From Chromobacterium haemolyticum DSM 19808 (lineage in GTDB: Bacteria > Pseudomonadota > Gammaproteobacteria > Burkholderiales > Chromobacteriaceae), in NCBI RefSeq assembly GCF_000711885.1, contig NZ_JONK01000006.1:1-64000 (forward strand): DNA of 64,000 nt, read 5' to 3'. The notes beneath the pieces were generated by a model. The model ran no database searches. It was given only the letters and a program-made list of their open reading frames with translations, and had not been told where the DNA came from. The translations under genes and the position numbers were made by a program. Shown here piece by piece: positions 732 to 26,337 of the stretch (within the stretch, counting starts at the first letter, position 1; the number at the start of each line of letters is the position of its first letter).

Positions 732-3700
732 ATGCTAGAAGATAAATCAATCTGCCCGCTGAGCGCCGCTCAGCAAGAAGTCTGCCTGGCCATCGCTCAA
801 GAAGGCCGCAACCTTCATTACCACCTGTGCGATGTGATCGAATTCAACGGCGATTTGCAAACGCCCTTGCTGGAACAAGCCATCAGAACCGTGTGCCAAC
901 AGGTGGACACCCTGCGCGCCACTTTCGAAACGGACCCGTCCACCGGGCAATACCGGCAACGCCTCCGCCCCCAATTGCACGACGACTATTTTTCCTGGCA
1001 CGACCTGTCCGCCAAACCGGATCCGGAGCAGGCCTACTCGGCCATGCTGGAAGAACTGCTGGCCGACGATATGGACCTGGCCGGGCAACCGCTGATCCGC
1101 TATCTGATCGTCAAGCTGGCCGACCGTCGTCATCGCATGATAGAGCTGGGCTCCCACCTGGTGGTGGACGGTTTCGGCCACGCCATCTTGTTCAAACACA
1201 TTACCGACGGCTATGTCCGGCTGGCGCGCGGAGAAGCCATCGAGCCGCTGCCGGCGCAGCCGCTAAGTCAGGTGTTCGAAGCGGAGCAGGCCTATCGCCA
1301 GAGCGAGTCCTATCTCAAGGACCAATCCTATTGGCGCCAGTACTGCCTGGATCTTCCCGACCCCACCCAGCTGGTGCCGGGCGAAGCTCCCCTACGCAAG
1401 CTGAACCGGCTACGCAAGGTCTTCTCCGGCGCGGCGGTGAACGGACTGCGGGAAACCGCTTCCCTGCATCGGCTCCGCCTGTCCAGCGTGCTGCTGGCGG
1501 CCTGCGCCACCTATCTTCACAGAATGACCGGACAAAGCGAGCTGGCGGTGGGCATGCCGGTGGCCGCCCGCCAATTGAAAGCCTTGCGCGAGATTCCGGC
1601 CATGGTGGCCAACATCCTGCCGCTGCGCATCTCGTTTACGCCGGAATCCACGGTGTTGTCCATCGCGGCGGACATCCAACGCCAGTTGCGGCGTCATCTG
1701 TTGCATCAGGGCTACCGCTCGGAAGCCATGATCCGCGACCTGTACGCGGAGCGCGGCCACAAGCCGCTGTTCAACACTCTGCTCAATATCGTGGCCTATG
1801 ACCAGGAAGTGGACTTCGACGGCTGCGAAGCCACGGTTCAGAACGTCGCCAACGGCCCCGCCGACCATCTCGGCATAGACATCTTCGACCGCAACGCCGA
1901 CGGCCGGCTGGAGATAGGCTTCAACGCCAACGCCGATCTTTACCCGCTCGAGGCGCTGGAGCTGCATTACGCGCGGATGACTTTATTGCTGGAGCGTTTC
2001 GTCGACGCGCCGGAAACCTTCGCCTCAGACTACCAACTGCTGCTGCCCGGCGAGCTCGAGCGCTGCTATCCGCTGCCGGCGCGCGCCGACGCGCCGCCTG
2101 TCTTCGCCGACGCCTTCGCCGCCTCCGCGCGGAGCCACGGCCACCTGCCGGCCCTGCGCCAGGGCGAACGCGAACTCAGCTACGCCGAGCTGGACGACCG
2201 CGCCGACCGTCTGGCCAGCCTGCTGCTGACGCGCGGCGTGCGACCCGGCGACGACGTCGCCGTCATCGTATCGCGCAGCATCGAATGGGCGGTTGCGGCG
2301 GTGGCGCTGTTCAAACTCGGCGCCGGTTATGTGCCGGTTGACCCCGATCTGCCGGAAGCCCGCATCGAATACATTCTGGCCGACGCCTCGCCGGCCGCGG
2401 TCATCGTCGCCGCCGGCGGCGCCGTCAAAACCGAGCTTGCGCCGGAGAAGCTGCTCTATCTGGACGCCGATGCGCTGGACGCGCTGCCGCCTGCCGCTCT
2501 CCCGCTCCCTCGCGTGCCCCCCTCCGCGCCGGGCTATCTGATCTACACATCGGGCTCCACCGGCAAGCCCAAGGGCGTGGAAGTGACTCACCGCAACCTG
2601 GTGCCCATCGCGGATACCGCCATCCGGGCGGCGGGGTTGCAAGCCGGCCAGCGCGTGCTGCAATTCATCGCGGCCGGTTTCGACATGTCGGTTCTGGAAA
2701 TCATGATGACGCTGCTGGCCGGCGCCACCCTGGTCCTCTGCGATAAAGTCTCCAGCGCGCCCGGCAAGCCGCTAGCCGCGCTGGTGAAACGGGAAAACAT
2801 CAAACTGCTGGTGATGACGCCCAGCCTGCTGGCCTATCACCAGACCGAGGACTTCCCCCGGGACACCGTCCTGATGCTAGGCGGAGAGCCGTGCACCCCG
2901 GCGCTGCTGGCGCGCTTCTCCCACTGCCGTCTGCTCAATGTCTACGGTCCGACCGAAACCTCCTTCGCCACCTCGATCAACGCCGACTACGGCGACGGCG
3001 ACCTGTCCATCGGCCCCGCTACCGCCAACACCCGGCTCTACGTGGTGGACCCGCGGCAACGGCTGTTGCCGCCCGGCGCCTGGGGAGACTTGTTCATCGG
3101 CGGCCCCGGCGTGGCCCGCGGTTACCGCAACAGTCCGGAGCTGACGGCCAAAGGCTTCGTCCCCGATCTGCTGGACCCCGCCGACACCATGTACCGAGCC
3201 GGCGACCGCATATTCTTTGACCACGCTGGCCGCATTCACTATCAGGGCCGCCAGGACAACCAGATCAAGCTGCGCGGGCTGCGCATCGAGCTGGACGAGA
3301 TCAAAAACGCCTTGCTAGGCTGCGGTGGCGTAGAGGACGCCGTGGCCTTGCTGCGCGATCTGCCGCACGGCCCGGCCATCGTCGGCTATGTGGCCAACCA
3401 GCAGTTGGAGCTGGACAGCGAGGGGCTGAAACAGGCGCTAAGCCGTCAATTGCCCCATCACATGATCCCCAGCGTCATCATGGTGGTGCCGGCCTTTCCG
3501 CTCACGCCCAACGGCAAGCTGGCCACCAGCGAACTGCCCACGCCGACGCTGCAGGACGACGGCGAGCAAGCGCCGCCGCGCACCCCGGAAGAAGAAATCA
3601 TGTGCCGGCTGTTCGCGACAGCGCTGGAATGCGGGGAGGTCTACGCCAATCAGAATTTCTTCGCGCTGGGCGGGCATTCGCTGCTGGGTCTGCAGCTGAT

Positions 3701-16801: not shown

Positions 16802-19800
16802 TTATGCCATAGCCGGCAATGCGTCCAATGCCGCGCACAAGGCGGTCAGTTCGCGGCCCAAGGTCTGGATGCGGGCCGGGGTCGCGTCTTCGGCCCGCCC
16901 TTGTCTCAAAGCGGCTTCCAGCGCGGCGGCCTCGGCCTGAACGCGGATCAGCCCCAAGGACCCTGCGGCCCCTTTCAGCGAGTGGGCGATGCGGCACGCC
17001 TCCTCGCTTTCTTCCGCGCGCGCCGCGTCCTCCAACTTGGCCGCGTCGTGGCGATGAAGGTCCGCGAACTTGCGCAGCAAACGTTCAAAACGCTCCAGAT
17101 CGTTCCCAACGGTGCGCAGGCCCGCCGCCAGATCCACACCGGGCAGGCCCATCAACTGCTCGCGTCGCCCGGCGACCGGCGGCGGATCGGGCGGCATGAT
17201 CCCAGGCGGCGCAAGCGACGGCAGCCATTTCAACAGCAATCCGAACAGTTGCTCCGGGTCCACCGGCTTTGCCACGAAGTCATTCATGCCGGCAGCCAGA
17301 CAGCGTTGGCGGTCCTCTTCGAAAGCGTTGGCGGTCATGCCCAGGATAGGGATGTGCTCCCAGCGCGGCAAAGCCCGGATCCGACGCGTCGCCTCCAATC
17401 CGTCCAGTTCCGGCATCTGCACGTCCATCAGCACCAGATCGTATACTCCGGCGGCGGCGCGCTCCACGGCCTCCCGGCCGTTGCGCGCCAGCTCGGCCTT
17501 CAGACCAACGCTGTCCAACAGCCAGAGCGCCACTTCCTGATTGATAAGGTCGTCCTCCACTACCAGCACCCTCGCGTCCGCGCGCAGCCGTAATTCGGCC
17601 TCAACCTTGTCAGGCTCCACGCCGGCCGGCTCGGCGGCAACGCTATCCCCCTCCGTCAGCCAGGCGGTCAGCCAAAACACGCTGCCGTGCCCCTCTTGGC
17701 TTTCCGCGCCCACTTCGCCGCCCATCAACGCGGCCAGGCGCTGGGTAATCGCCAAACCCAGGCCGGTGCCGCCGTATTTGCGGGTGGTGGAATCGTCCGC
17801 CTGCTGAAACGCCTGAAACAGGCTGGCCAGTTTGTCGGCGGGAATGCCGATGCCGGTGTCGCGCACCTCGAAACGCAGCAGCAGGCGCTCGCCTTCGCTC
17901 CGCAACAGCCGCGCACGCATGGTGATCGTTCCCCGCTCGGTGAATTTGACCGCGTTGCCCGCGTAATTGAGCAAAGCCTGGCGCAAGCGGGTGGAATCGC
18001 CACGCAGACACGGCGGCACGCCCGCGTAATCGATCTCCACGCGCAAACCCTTGGCCTGCGCCGGCTCGTCGATCAGGGAACGCACGTGATCGAACAGCGC
18101 GCCGATGGAAAAGTCGGTCCGCTCCAGCGACAACTTGCCGGCTTCGATCTTGGACAGGTCCAGAATGTCGTTGATGATGCCAAGCAGATGCCCGCTGGCC
18201 ACCAGCACTTTTTCCAGCTTGGCCTGCTGCTCCGGCCGCGGCTGAGTGCGCATCAGCAAATGGGTGAAACCGATGATGGCGTTCAAGGGCGTGCGGATTT
18301 CATGGCTCATATTGGCGACGAAGGCGCTCTTGGCCAGATTGGCCGCCTCCGCGTCTTCCTTGGCGCGCACCAGGGCCTGCTCGGTCTCCTTGCGCCGGGT
18401 GATGTCGGTGACGAAGCCGATGATTTTGTCCGAGCCCCCCGGCCTGTCCGGCAGGTAATACGCCGTCATTTCCACTGCCACCAGCCGCCCGTCCCGGGTT
18501 CGTTGCTGGGTTTCGAACTGCGCCCGGCTTTGCTGCCGCAGGCGCTCCACGGTGTGCGCGTAGATTTCGGGCGTGGTATTGGGCACGATGTCCGATACGT
18601 TCAGGCTCAACATCTCATCGACGCCGTAGCCCAGCAGCTCCGCCGCGTAACGGTTGACGTAGATCAGCCGCCCGCTCGCCGCATCCACCCAGTGGATGCC
18701 GATGCCCACGCTGTCCATGGCGAACTGGGTGGTTTGCAGCTTGGCGCTGGTGGCGCGCACCTCCGCGGTGCGCACCGCCACCAGTTCTTCCAGGTGATGA
18801 CGGTGCTGATCCAGCTCCATGGCCAGCCGCTTTTTCTGGGTGATATCCTCTTGCAAGGACAGGTAATGACTGATCCTGCCGTCCGGTTGACGGATAGGCG
18901 AGATGTGGGCGAAGTCGACGTAATCGCTGCCGTCCTTGCGCCGGTTGAACAGCTCGCCTTTCCATGGCTGACCGGCCCGCAGCGCGCTCCACAGCTCCGC
19001 ATAGGTGTCCGCTGGAGTCAGGCCGGACTTGAGCAGATTGGGCGTCTGCCCCATCACCTCTTCCCGGCTGTAACCGGTATTGCGGACAAACGCTTCGTTG
19101 ACGTATTCAATCCGCGTTTCCAGATCGGTGATGACGATGCTCTCCGGGCTCTGCTCCACCGCCATGGACAGCTGGCGAATCCGCTCCGCCGCCTGCCGCC
19201 GCAAGGTAATGTCGCGGAAAGCGCCGTAGACGCCGCCATCCGGCAGGCGGATCGCGTTCACCTCCACCGGCACCTCGGCGCCGTCCTTGCGCCGCAGCAG
19301 CATCTCGGCGCTCAACTGCTCGTTGGACAGCAAGCGCTGGAACAAAGACTGCGCATTATCCGCCGCGGAGCCCGCGCTGAAATCGCCCACCCGCATCGCC
19401 AGGATTTCCGGCTCGTCATAACCCAGCAACTGACAGGCCTGCAGGTTGGCGTATTGATAGCGCCCCTCCGCATCCGCCACCAACACGGCATCTGCGGCAT
19501 GATCCAACACGCTGCGATAGCGCGCTTCGGCGCTGGCCAAGGCCTGGGTTTTTTCGCGCAGCGGCCGCAAATCGTTATAGGTGCCGAAAAAGCCGCAGAA
19601 CGTGCCGGACAGATCGTGCATGGCGGTGACGCAGGCGTAAACCGGAATGATTTCGCCGTTGCTGGCGACCCGCGCCTGCTCGCCGGTCCAGCGTCCCTGC
19701 TGTTTCACCTGCTGCTCCAGCGCCGCCCGCTCCTCCCGGCTAACCGGATCGTCCGGAATGAAGCGTGAGATCGAGGTGCCCAGCAGTTCGCCGATCGAAT

Positions 19801-21430
19801 ACCCCATCAACTCGCCAAACGCGGCGTTGACGTACAGGATATTCTTGGATGCATCGGTCATCACCACCGGCTGCGCCGACTGATCCAGCGCCTCCGCCAA
19901 CTGGTGACGCTCTTCTTCAACGGATTTGCGCGCGGAGATGTCCTCGGTGAAGATCACAATCCCCCCGATGGCGCCGTCTCGCGCGTGCCATGGCCGCACT
20001 TCCCAACACAGCCACTGCGCCGCGCCGTTCTGACGCAGAAAGCGGTCTTCCTCTTCGCGCACCACCTCCCCGGCCAGCGCCCGGCGATGAATTTCCCGCC
20101 AAGCGTCGGGGATCTCCGGGAATACCTCGTAGTGGGATCGGCCGATGATGTCCTGGCCGTCCAGTTGGTAATCGTCCAGCCAGCGACGGCTGGCCGCCAG
20201 ATAACGCATATTGCGATCGAACATCGCCAGCGCCGCCGGGGCGTGTTCGATGAACAGCGATAGTCTTTCCTCGCTTTCCAACAGAGCGGTTTCCATGGCT
20301 TTTCGGTCGGACACGTCCTGCATTGCGCCCCGCACCGACACCACCTTGCCGCCCGCCAACACCGGTCTCCCGGACACTCTCACCCACTTGCGCCGGCCGG
20401 TGGCGCTGAGCAATTGCAGCTCCAGATCATAGGGCTCGGCCTCCGTCACGACGCGGCGCACCGCTTCCTCTATCCGCCGGCGATCCTCCCCATGGAAAAA
20501 ATCCAACCCAATGCAGGTGTTGGCCGGAGCATCGGCCGGCAGGTCATGGATGCGGGCCACTTCCGAGGTCCAGCCGCAGTCCCCGCTTGCGGGATCAAAC
20601 CACCAGCCGCCCACCCGGGCGATGGCGCTCATTTCCTGCAGCAATTGCTCGCGCTTCCCCTGCTCCGCTTCGGCGCGCTTGCGCGCGCTGATGTCCGACG
20701 CGATGCCGCACACCGCGTAGGCGCGCCCCTCGGCGTCGAACAAGGGAAATTTGTACACCAAGTAAGTATGCGGGCCATCGTCGTGCGGCACGGTTTCCTC
20801 GTATTCGCGCGCCTGACCGGTGTTCAGCACTTCCAGATCGGCCTCGCGCAACTTGGCCACCACATCGGGCGGGAACAAGTCCTCGTCGCGCAGACCGCGC
20901 ATGGCCTCTACGCTGATATGGAACAAATCCGGATAGCGTTGATTGACCAGCAGATAGCGGCCATGCATGTCCTTGACGAAGATGACCGCGGTGGAGTTGT
21001 TGATGATGGCGTGCAATAAAGCTTGCTGGCGCGCCAGTTCATTCTCCGCCCAACGCGAGCGGCGACTGATGAGACGCTGGCTGAACAGGCTAAACATCAA
21101 GCCGCACAAGGCGAACAAGGCAATTGAGGCGGCATCGGACGTCCGGATAATGACGAAGCTCCACTGCGGGGGCATGAACAGATACCAGACCAGCAAAGTC
21201 GACAAGACGGTGGCGACCAGACCGCCAGTCAGCCCGCCCAGCATGGCGGATACGAAGACCGCGGGATAGAACAGGAACCAGACGTATGGGTGGATCCAGT
21301 CCCAAAACCACCACTGCGCGGCCAAGGCCAGCAAGGGCACCAGAACCCCCCCCCCCCACGCGCGCCATGGCAGGGAGGCGAGGAAAGCCCGGAATCGAGC
21401 TTTTCCCGCCTCTTGTTTAAAATCCGTCAA
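16802..21430 (-). CDS. Multi-PAS hybrid sensor histidine kinase with REC and HPt
   Basis: 1542 residues. A DUF4118-like membrane region of about four helices (25-130) is followed by roughly seven PAS/PAC modules (about 135-1020). HisKA has H1043 in [10 protein letters not shown]. HATPase (about 1150-1265) has NAVKFT, DTGIGIP and [11 protein letters not shown] (about 1290-1405) has D1336 in [13 protein letters not shown]-terminal HPt has H1483 in AHSLKGAAG. It is a complete phosphorelay up to HPt, so the output regulator must be elsewhere. The start is TTG 21430, with GAGG 7 bp before it. Codons about 25-28 lie in a run of 12 G (21346-21357), so slippage would switch the frame. An ATG at 21368 is out of frame with 12 G but would be in frame with 11. 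Confidence 0.93.
21346..21357 (-). repeat. Homopolymer G12 tract (C12 on + strand) within a kinase gene
   Basis: Twelve consecutive C on the plus strand encode Gly-Gly-Gly and flanking bases at about codons 25-28 of the histidine kinase. The tract is by far the longest G/C homopolymer I see in the window and lies within the first 85 bases of the gene, as is typical of phase-variable loci. Confidence 0.95.
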
Positions 21431-21563
21431 TTCTGGGCCTCGACTCGAAAGCTGGCTTGGTTTTGTCAGTTCTCACGATAGACCATGCCCCCTACGCCGG
21501 ACAAACCGCCTACTGCCGACGCAAGCGTCTGGTCTCCCCCTCGGCGTCGCGCCATTGCAGCGT

Positions 21564-24171: not shown

Positions 24172-24968
24172 TCGGCCCGAAAACGCGGCAGATAGTCGCG
24201 TTGCAACCAAGCTTCCGGCACCTCGCGCCAAGCGAACTGGCTGTTGCGCAACACCGTTATCCAGCGCGGATTGAGGCCGTCTATGATCACGGTTTCCGTC
24301 GGGCGCTCTCGTCCCAACACTGGCTGATACGCGCGGTAGTACGCGGTCTTCAGCAGGCTTCCGCTCTCTGCATAGAATTGCGCCTTGCGGCTGCGATAGC
24401 CATCGCGGTCCACCCACAGATCAATCGCGTGGTAGGTGACGCCGGGATTGCGCGCGCTGAGCCGCAGCTTGTAGCAAAACCGCGTCTGGCGGTCCCCGTC
24501 CTGTATCGTCTCCTCGCCGGCCAGCACCGCTTGATAATCCAGCGCCAGGTTGACAGTGACCACGTCGCCGTTGGCCGCCTGGCCCAACAGCCGCTGCTGC
24601 GGCGAAATCGGCACGCTGGCCTTGCTCGCCGGATCGAAAAACCACAGATCGTTGCCGCTTTTGAGCATCAGCTTGCCGGCGTCCCGCTTAGGGTTGATGA
24701 AACGCAGCAGGCTGCGGAACTGGCCGCTTTTCGGATCGGCGCGCGAATACACCGCCAGCGCGCTGGCCTCGTTCTGCTTGCCGTCCTTATAACTGACCAA
24801 GGACACCACCAGCCCGAAGGAGCGCTCCGGATTGCGCACCGCGTCGCTATTGGCCAGGATGGTCTGCGCGTCGGGCGCCGCCAGCGTCGTCGTCGCCCAC
24901 AAGGCAACGCTCAACGCGGCCCAGCGTACCGTTCTCACTCTCTTGAAAATTCCAAGCCTGTCACGCAT
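24168..24968 (-). CDS. Periplasmic LolA-like (outer-membrane lipoprotein-sorting type) protein, operon 1
   Basis: 266 residues. A signal peptide with a cleavage site near TTLAA-PDAQ is followed by a LolA-like half-barrel domain. Its blocks include RSFGLVVSLVSYKDGKQ, FRSLLRFINPKRDAGKLML, NDLWFFDPASKASVPISPQQ and LWVDRDGYRSRKAQFY, ending with LNPRWITVLRNSQFAW. This matches the family annotated as outer membrane lipoprotein-sorting protein (LolA-like, PF17131 type). It overlaps the permease gene by 8 bp and the barrel gene by 4 bp. By analogy with LolA it probably carries a lipid or lipoprotein released by the ABC transporter. The paralogue is at 28257. Confidence 0.86.
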   Translation of the reverse strand: MRDRLGIFKRVRTVRWAALSVALWATTTLAAPDAQTILANSDAVRNPERSFGLVVSLVSYKDGKQNEASALAVYSRADPKSGQFRSLLRFINPKRDAGKLMLKSGNDLWFFDPASKASVPISPQQRLLGQAANGDVVTVNLALDYQAVLAGEETIQDGDRQTRFCYKLRLSARNPGVTYHAIDLWVDRDGYRSRKAQFYAESGSLLKTAYYRAYQPVLGRERPTETVIIDGLNPRWITVLRNSQFAWREVPEAWLQRDYLPRFRAE

Positions 24969-26337
24969 GACGCAAAGCCTCCACGATATTGGCCGCGGCC
25001 GCGCGCCGCGCCGGCCACCACGACGATAGCAGCGCCATTGCCATCAAACCGCCGGCGGTCACCGCCATCATCCGCCACTCGCCCCATACCCGCACCAGGA
25101 TGGGGCTGGGGTCCACCTGCCCCGGCGGCAGCCAGGTCAGCCCGGCGTGATTGATCAGCCAGGCGAGCAACAACGCCAGCGCGATGCCCAGCACCCCGCC
25201 GCCAAGGCCCAGCAGACAACCCTCGCACAGGAACAGCCGCTGGATGCCGCGGCGGCGCAACCCCATTGCTCGCAGAGTGCCGATCTCCACTGTCCGCTCC
25301 AGCACCACCATATTCATGGTGTTGCCTATGGTGAACAGCGCCACGCAGGCGATCAACACCGCCAGAAAGCCGAAAATGGTGCCGAACATGCCGGTGATTT
25401 GGCCGTATTGCGGCTGCAGCGTGGCAAAGTCGTGCGCCGCCAGCGGCTGGCCGCGCAAGCGGGTGGCGAACAGCTGGCGCAAACGCGCCTCGGCCGCCGG
25501 AATCTGCGCGGTGTGCCTGAGCTGCAGCACGATGGCGGTGGCCATCGGCTCGCCCTGGCCGTACACCAGCTGCTGAGCCTGGCGCAGATGCAGGCCGACA
25601 TACATATCGTCCAGCTCCTTGATGCCTTGGCTCTCCACCTTGGCCACTTGCAAGCGGGCCACATTGGGCGCACCGGCGGCGGTGGCGGCCAAAAGCTCGA
25701 TCTGATCGTCGCGGCCGACGGCCGGCGGCGCCGCCGCGGACAAGGCCGCCAGATCGGCCGGCAAATCGTCGCCGCCGGCCGGAACCGGCGGCGGCGCGCA
25801 ATCCTTGAGCTTGAACGCCGCGCACAATTGCAGCACTCGCGCCACACCGGTGCCGATCACCGCCGCGTTCGGCGCGGTGCCGGTCAGCGCCACCGGTTTG
25901 CGCTTATCGTTGAAGCCATAATCGTCCCAACGCCGCAGCCGGTTCTGCGCGTCCACTTCGCTGCCGCGGGCGATCACCGTTCGAGAGGCGCCGGCCGCGT
26001 AATGGCCGGCAATGCCGCCCAAGCTCAACGTGGGGGTCACCACCGTCAACATCGGCCGCAGCACCGGGTCGTTCTCGATCTGCCGCATCACGGTCCGGTA
26101 ATCGCGGATGCCATAAGCGGCGGGGTTGCCGCTGCCGTACAGGAAATAATCCCGATGCTGCACCTGCAGATGGCCGCCGGCGCGCACCATGCCGGTTTGC
26201 AGCCCATATTGCACCGTGCGGTTGTAACCGCCGAACAGCAACACCGCCACCAAGCCGATAATCATCGTGGACAAGGTCGCCAAGGTGCGGCGGCGATTAC
26301 GCAGCAGATTGCGCCAGGCCAGCTTCAAGGTATTCAC
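24961..26337 (-). CDS. FtsX/LolC-type ABC transporter permease, operon 1
   Basis: 458 residues. An N-terminal helix in LAWRNLLRNRRRTLATLSTMIIGLVAVLLFGG is followed by a large periplasmic domain (about 45-320) and three C-terminal membrane helices. The conserved FtsX block ERTVEIGTLRAMGLRRRGI leads to FLCEG, typical of LolC/E and MacB-type permeases (type VII ABC). Such systems move substrates within or out of the inner membrane mechanically rather than through a pore. The ATG overlaps the ATPase stop by 4 bp. The sequence is closely similar along its whole length to the permease at 29061. Confidence 0.92.
   Translation of the reverse strand: MNTLKLAWRNLLRNRRRTLATLSTMIIGLVAVLLFGGYNRTVQYGLQTGMVRAGGHLQVQHRDYFLYGSGNPAAYGIRDYRTVMRQIENDPVLRPMLTVVTPTLSLGGIAGHYAAGASRTVIARGSEVDAQNRLRRWDDYGFNDKRKPVALTGTAPNAAVIGTGVARVLQLCAAFKLKDCAPPPVPAGGDDLPADLAALSAAAPPAVGRDDQIELLAATAAGAPNVARLQVAKVESQGIKELDDMYVGLHLRQAQQLVYGQGEPMATAIVLQLRHTAQIPAAEARLRQLFATRLRGQPLAAHDFATLQPQYGQITGMFGTIFGFLAVLIACVALFTIGNTMNMVVLERTVEIGTLRAMGLRRRGIQRLFLCEGCLLGLGGGVLGIALALLLAWLINHAGLTWLPPGQVDPSPILVRVWGEWRMMAVTAGGLMAMALLSSWWPARRAAAANIVEALRHA

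Follow-up and report, generated by a model that had tools for sequence, protein, structure and literature searches.

A twelve-base poly-G run early in a hybrid histidine kinase gene of Chromobacterium haemolyticum: a probably hypermutable tract that looks young

A run of twelve G lies near the 5' end of a hybrid histidine kinase gene in Chromobacterium haemolyticum DSM 19808, within the window analysed here, a stretch of 64,000 nucleotides from contig NZ_JONK01000006.1. We read it as a young, lineage-specific poly-G run of point mutation or recombination origin, sitting in an orphan kinase gene that is predicted to work; the run is probably hypermutable, and selected switching is unsupported. 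The probability of this reading is, in our judgement, roughly two in three. As the four close relatives compared do not carry the run, it has the look of a recent accident, prone to mutation, and not of a proven on/off switch. The preliminary description of this DNA had proposed a phase-variable sensor. Its observation of the tract is confirmed and its frame arithmetic is correct, while phase variation stands as a possibility, and the proposal as a whole is partly supported.

The course of events would be as follows. In a Gly-rich stretch of the form TGC GGG GTG GGG or similar, two interrupting bases would have become G, either by point mutation or within an import of about 300 bp, acquired by recombination from a congener outside the sample. 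The kinase frame is ON at 12 G. The G12 would then slip at a raised rate during replication, which may yield occasional frameshifted, mostly OFF variants. The tract site is probably hypermutable; the slippage and the OFF phenotype we infer.

Homopolymer switches in sensor kinases have been described before, for example in bvgS. Bordetella pertussis bvgS is full length in C6 alleles and truncated in C7 alleles (PMC1891110). The likeness lies in a C/G homopolymer within the coding sequence of a sensor kinase, where a change of length frameshifts the kinase. However, the C6 and C7 alleles of bvgS were seen in strains and tied to phenotype (PMC1891110), whereas here a single genome offers one allele, G12, and the tract stands at codon 25 of 1542, unlike in bvgS. 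The flgS and flgR genes of Campylobacter jejuni are likewise two-component genes with homopolymer tracts, in which mutation controls expression of the system; they vary via poly-A/T tracts, in a manner described as non-reversible (PMC8355987). Those tracts have fewer than 7 repeats and their variation was probably seen under strong selection (PMC8355987), in contrast to a poly-G of 12 in one genome. The contingency genes of Neisseria and Campylobacter resemble the present case in having homopolymers or other simple repeats in coding sequence, but they form gene sets that are length-polymorphic between strains (PMC5084427, PMC8355987), whereas the runs here are isolated and none is shared with the four relatives compared. 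A survey of 99 prokaryotic genomes describes poly-C and poly-G tracts longer than 2 bases as generally under-represented (PMC2831843). No report of phase variation in Chromobacterium was found among the titles and abstract beginnings of the papers listed.

If tract length varies in populations, this gene would be a further homopolymer-controlled sensor kinase, in a genus for which no report was found, caught soon after the birth of its tract. If it does not, the case shows why a lone long G run, found in one genome, argues only weakly for phase variation, because about one run of at least 11 occurs per genus genome and none of the 13 runs of at least 9 found here recurs in the four closest relatives.

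The run and the kinase gene that carries it

As assembled, the tract is a pure homopolymer of a length that can slip, within coding sequence, and it lies at exactly 21346-21357, in agreement with the preliminary description, as C12 on the plus strand and G12 at codons 25-28 of the kinase (Table 1). The run spans codon 25 from its second base, codons 26-28 in full and the opening base of codon 29, reading TGG GGG GGG GGG GTT for W25 G26 G27 G28 V29, and is preceded by CGC GCG. It is the sole G/C run longer than 7 in the window, the other longest being two C7, nine C6 and four G6. Only 0.0004-0.019 runs of at least 12 are expected per window (Markov orders 1-5), so that chance does not explain the C12 in this window.

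Table 1. Features of the kinase gene and its tract, in window coordinates
Feature	Position	Strand	Remarks
G12 homopolymer (C12 on the plus strand)	21346..21357	-	codon 25 to first base of codon 29
Hybrid histidine kinase gene	16802..21430	-	1542 aa from a TTG; open frame at 12 G
GAGG, Shine-Dalgarno-like	21438..21441	-	7-nt spacer to TTG; TTG and GAGG kept in four relatives
DUF4118 domain (PF13493)	21056..21355	-	residues 26-125, Pfam; profile match starts within the G tract
HisKA domain	18137..18334	-	residues 1033-1098, Pfam
HATPase_c domain	17660..18001	-	residues 1144-1257, Pfam
Response regulator receiver domain	17243..17569	-	residues 1288-1396, Pfam
Hpt domain	16832..17080	-	residues 1451-1533, Pfam
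Patch of raised divergence from sister genome G018	21112..21420	-	about 300 bp, holds the tract; limits picked after looking
Alternative ATG	21366..21368	-	outside the kinase frame at G12, joins it at G11 or G14

The gene product has the HisKA, HATPase_c, receiver and Hpt domains and the phosphoacceptor motifs of a hybrid histidine kinase. Several PAS domains were also matched by Pfam, giving the architecture DUF4118-PAS-HisKA-HATPase-REC-Hpt. The phosphotransfer motifs SHEIRTP, DTGIG, GLGL, LMDVQMP and AHSLKG are intact here and in three relatives, and the kinase is under purifying selection, with a dN/dS of 0.14 against G018. Among 25 listed of 155 matches, no NCBIfam equivalog cut-off for a named sensor kinase (TorS, BarA, ArcB and others) was reached. 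The flanking genes with Pfam matches are a beta-N-acetylglucosaminidase (NAGidase)-like, a beta-lactamase-fold and a GGDEF-EAL gene, and three further ORFs nearby gave no Pfam match. By Pfam on the flanking genes, no response regulator or other regulator gene adjoins the kinase, so that any regulon under its control is conjecture. Judged from its sequence, the protein is an orphan hybrid histidine kinase, predicted to be working.

A change of tract length shifts the reading frame, as computed for 9-15 G. The TTG frame is open with 12 G, behind a well-spaced GAGG, as the preliminary description had stated, and lengths of 9 or 15 keep it open too. A tract of 11 or 14 G ends it after 66/67 codons, while the ATG at 21368 joins the kinase frame to give 1521/1522 aa, again in agreement with what had been proposed; the GTG at 21359 joins it too. 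At 10 or 13 G both frames end early, the one from the TTG after 112/113 codons, the one from the ATG after 45/46. The further proposal that this ATG would serve as an alternative start does not hold up as well. No Shine-Dalgarno-like sequence stands before the ATG at 21368 (the preceding letters are TCCTCGCCTCCCTGCC), so an alternative start with its own ribosome binding site was not found there. Its equivalent also occurs as CCA TGG in G004 and G013, both free of the tract, which makes it look like a side effect of a Pro-Trp codon pair. GTG and TTG codons in frame with the kinase, which the earlier account did not mention, lie 5, 11 and 20 nt 3' of the tract and, if used, would give products of 1507-1512 aa whatever the tract length between 9 and 15.

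The tract site in relatives and the diverged 5' segment

Orthologues were searched for in 41 genomes first and then in 19 genus genomes, its own included. Four genus genomes (G018, G004, G013 and G001) carry a kinase orthologue, 73-90% identical over the N-terminal 343 aa, and it is on these 4 orthologues that the phrase relatives without the tract rests. Three further genomes, in which the N-terminus is distant (41-43% identical), were left out of the tract alignment, and the remaining eleven gave no kinase match at E 1e-20. A wider contig scan, from which near records may be absent, added 80 more distant kinases with a best-segment identity of at most 53%.

The tract site is interrupted in all four orthologues, with length and frame unchanged, most clearly in three. 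The tract-site codons in the set of G018, G004 and G013 are TGC GGA GTG GGC, TGC GGG ATG GGG and TGC GGG GTG GGG; the site in G001 is broken as well, its register being less certain because G001 is diverged. Across the four orthologous loci (3.4-4.0 kb), no G/C run of at least 7 was found. From a form like that of G013, the pure run is reached by two changes to G, both transversions and both non-synonymous (Cys to Trp and Val to Gly), at unchanged length. The preliminary description had named relatives with a synonymously interrupted tract as evidence that would count against it, and interrupted tracts are indeed what the orthologues have (4/4), though the interruptions are non-synonymous. A conserved contingency locus was rejected, the run being broken in the four orthologues.

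The NAGidase-like and GGDEF-EAL genes lie near the kinase in 4/4 orthologue genomes, and the beta-lactamase-fold gene was matched in 3/4 orthologue stretches, the G001 contig beginning just upstream. The spacing from the kinase to the NAGidase-like gene is about 2.6 kb in G013 and G001, against 166 bases here.

The tract lies in a patch of raised divergence from G018, where 53 of 309 sites differ; the remainder of the 1-kb stretch differs at 38 of 691 (binomial p 2e-13, with limits set post hoc). Nearly half of these differences (26/53) are private to this genome, and they are of many kinds, not only to G. Kinase residue changes specific to this genome are concentrated in the same part, 14 of 34 falling in codons 1-133 where 2.9 are expected (this limit also being post hoc). 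Against G018, dS is 0.52 in codons 1-40 and 0.19 overall, with dN/dS of 0.26 and 0.14, so that purifying selection persists; the raised dS in these first codons points to import and not to selection on the protein alone. We infer that recombination may have put a diverged allele in place of the 5' segment. Among 61 family genomes, own included, nothing matched the patch more closely than the known orthologues, and no donor was found. A second stretch, at about 24419-25318 (24.4-25.3 kb), is nearly as diverged from G018, the sequence being otherwise about 94% identical, and could likewise be an allele exchange. With this second stretch the patch is not unique, and it could reflect fast evolution.

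Competing explanations

One alternative is that the pure run is an artefact of sequencing or assembly, the real sequence retaining one or both interruptions, or the run length being wrong, through G-rich miscalls. We consider this unlikely. The assembly is a draft of 63 contigs, and both needed changes are to G within a G-rich context, which is a weak spot of short reads. The altered residues are Cys25 and Val/Met27 in three orthologues, the overlapping G9 matches number 22 here, the highest of 19 genus genomes (2-21 in the others), and a C11 in the draft G010 hints at wrong homopolymer lengths in drafts. However, the private differences of the patch go beyond changes to G, the reading frame is intact at 12 G, the G9 count is close to those of G018 (21) and G010 (20), with 2-17 in the rest, and runs of 11 to 18 occur also in the single-contig genomes G014, G015 and G017. 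An evolved contingency locus has a slim chance. Here, slipped-strand mispairing would produce the full-length kinase (12, 15 G), the form started at ATG 21368 (11, 14) or the OFF state (10, 13), and subpopulations would differ in their regulon. The G12 is longer than the C6/C7 switch described in the cited account of bvgS (PMC1891110), it stands near the 5' end of its gene and the frame arithmetic is correct. Two G12 runs in the genome, both early in open frames, exceed the 0.10-0.56 expected by tail extrapolation. Yet the tract conservation across related genomes that marks such a locus was not found: it is missing in 4/4 orthologues, and 0 of the 13 runs of at least 9 are common with the 29 in the four relatives. 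The ATG at 21368 has no Shine-Dalgarno sequence, the genome has both mutS and mutL, and the papers listed (titles and abstract beginnings) gave no report of homopolymer phase variation in Chromobacterium. With no regulator gene adjoining the kinase in addition, the phase-variable sensor put forward earlier is unsupported, while the general idea behind it, that a G12 can slip, is supported.

Quite improbable is a combination of the two processes, in which the N-terminal sensor segment would have been swapped for a recombined G12 allele and slippage would then give three outcomes (TTG start, ATG start, OFF), a sensor made switchable via allele exchange. It is very doubtful that the poly-G acts as a G-rich, Shine-Dalgarno-like element for the GTG or TTG codons just 3' of it, so that a kinase about 30 residues shorter would be made at any tract length. 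The position and constant frame of these codons at all tested lengths would suit such a role, but the TTG start and its GAGG are kept in the four tract-free relatives, and an internal start would cut off the first residues of the DUF4118 match.

Poly-G runs across the genome and the genus

The genome (5,030,199 bases) contains 13 G runs of at least 9, eight with 9 bases, three with 10 and two with 12. Markov scaling gives 0.03-1.5 expected runs of at least 12 genome-wide, and the Poisson probability of two or more G12 runs, given the expectation from tail extrapolation, is 0.005-0.11, so that a G12 is less odd across the genome than within the window. The second G12 (positions 3344-3355 of locus L172, on contig C53) falls near codon 61 of a 666-aa ORF, which occupies L172:1536-3536 on the minus strand. 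This ORF sits between two transposase-like genes; it gave no Pfam or NCBIfam match, and neither the 18 other genomes of the genus nor the plasmid collection contained a match to it. Models for mutS and mutL each match above their cut-offs, with no stops in either gene. With both repair proteins encoded, slippage should be lower than in a repair-deficient strain, and a hypermutator background is unsupported.

Comparison of 300-base flanks revealed none of the 13 runs in common with the four closest relatives. In the genus as a whole, 20 G runs of at least 11 are spread over 14 of 19 genomes, with lengths of 11 (twelve runs), 12 (four), 14 (two), 15 and 18, a frequency of about one per genome (20 in 19). 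By eye, six to eight of these lie within or at the 5' edge of plausible genes and the others are apparently intergenic, as is the longest, the G18 of L147 (G017:C1:1208548-1208565) in a single-contig genome. A systematic set of poly-G switches was not seen among these 20 runs.

The fate of such runs may be illustrated by G018, where a pure G14 (L145/L178, G018:C7:79082-79095) breaks the frame of a gene that we take, from its motif, to be alpha/beta-hydrolase-like. The counterpart here and in three relatives is interrupted and four bases shorter, with the hydrolase frame open. At face value, G runs form by loss of interruptions and then change length. This process would support instability of the G12 here, in a gene with no other signs of programmed switching. 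Caution comes from the draft G010, in which a topoisomerase IV subunit A-like gene has its likely 5' end thrown off-frame from its body by a C11 (L151:1501-1511; G010:C72:86893-86903). Such a gene is expected to be needed, and so either a downstream or internal start is used or draft homopolymer lengths are sometimes wrong; the C11 is thus either an assembly error, a case of internal start or a real frameshift. The same caution weakens the G14 example of G018.

Two further observations concern other runs. A G11 at L170 (G015:C1:4363596) and a G10 at L220 (G018:C56:19480), shifted by a few bases, apparently lie in the same gene, their flanks being matched by eye, and this looks like recurrent run formation in a Gly-rich stretch. 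A G9 run at L046 (G000:C15:35364-35372) falls at an FSGAGLMGGGF stretch near the start of its gene, which, from this motif, is presumably a DNA cytosine methyltransferase.
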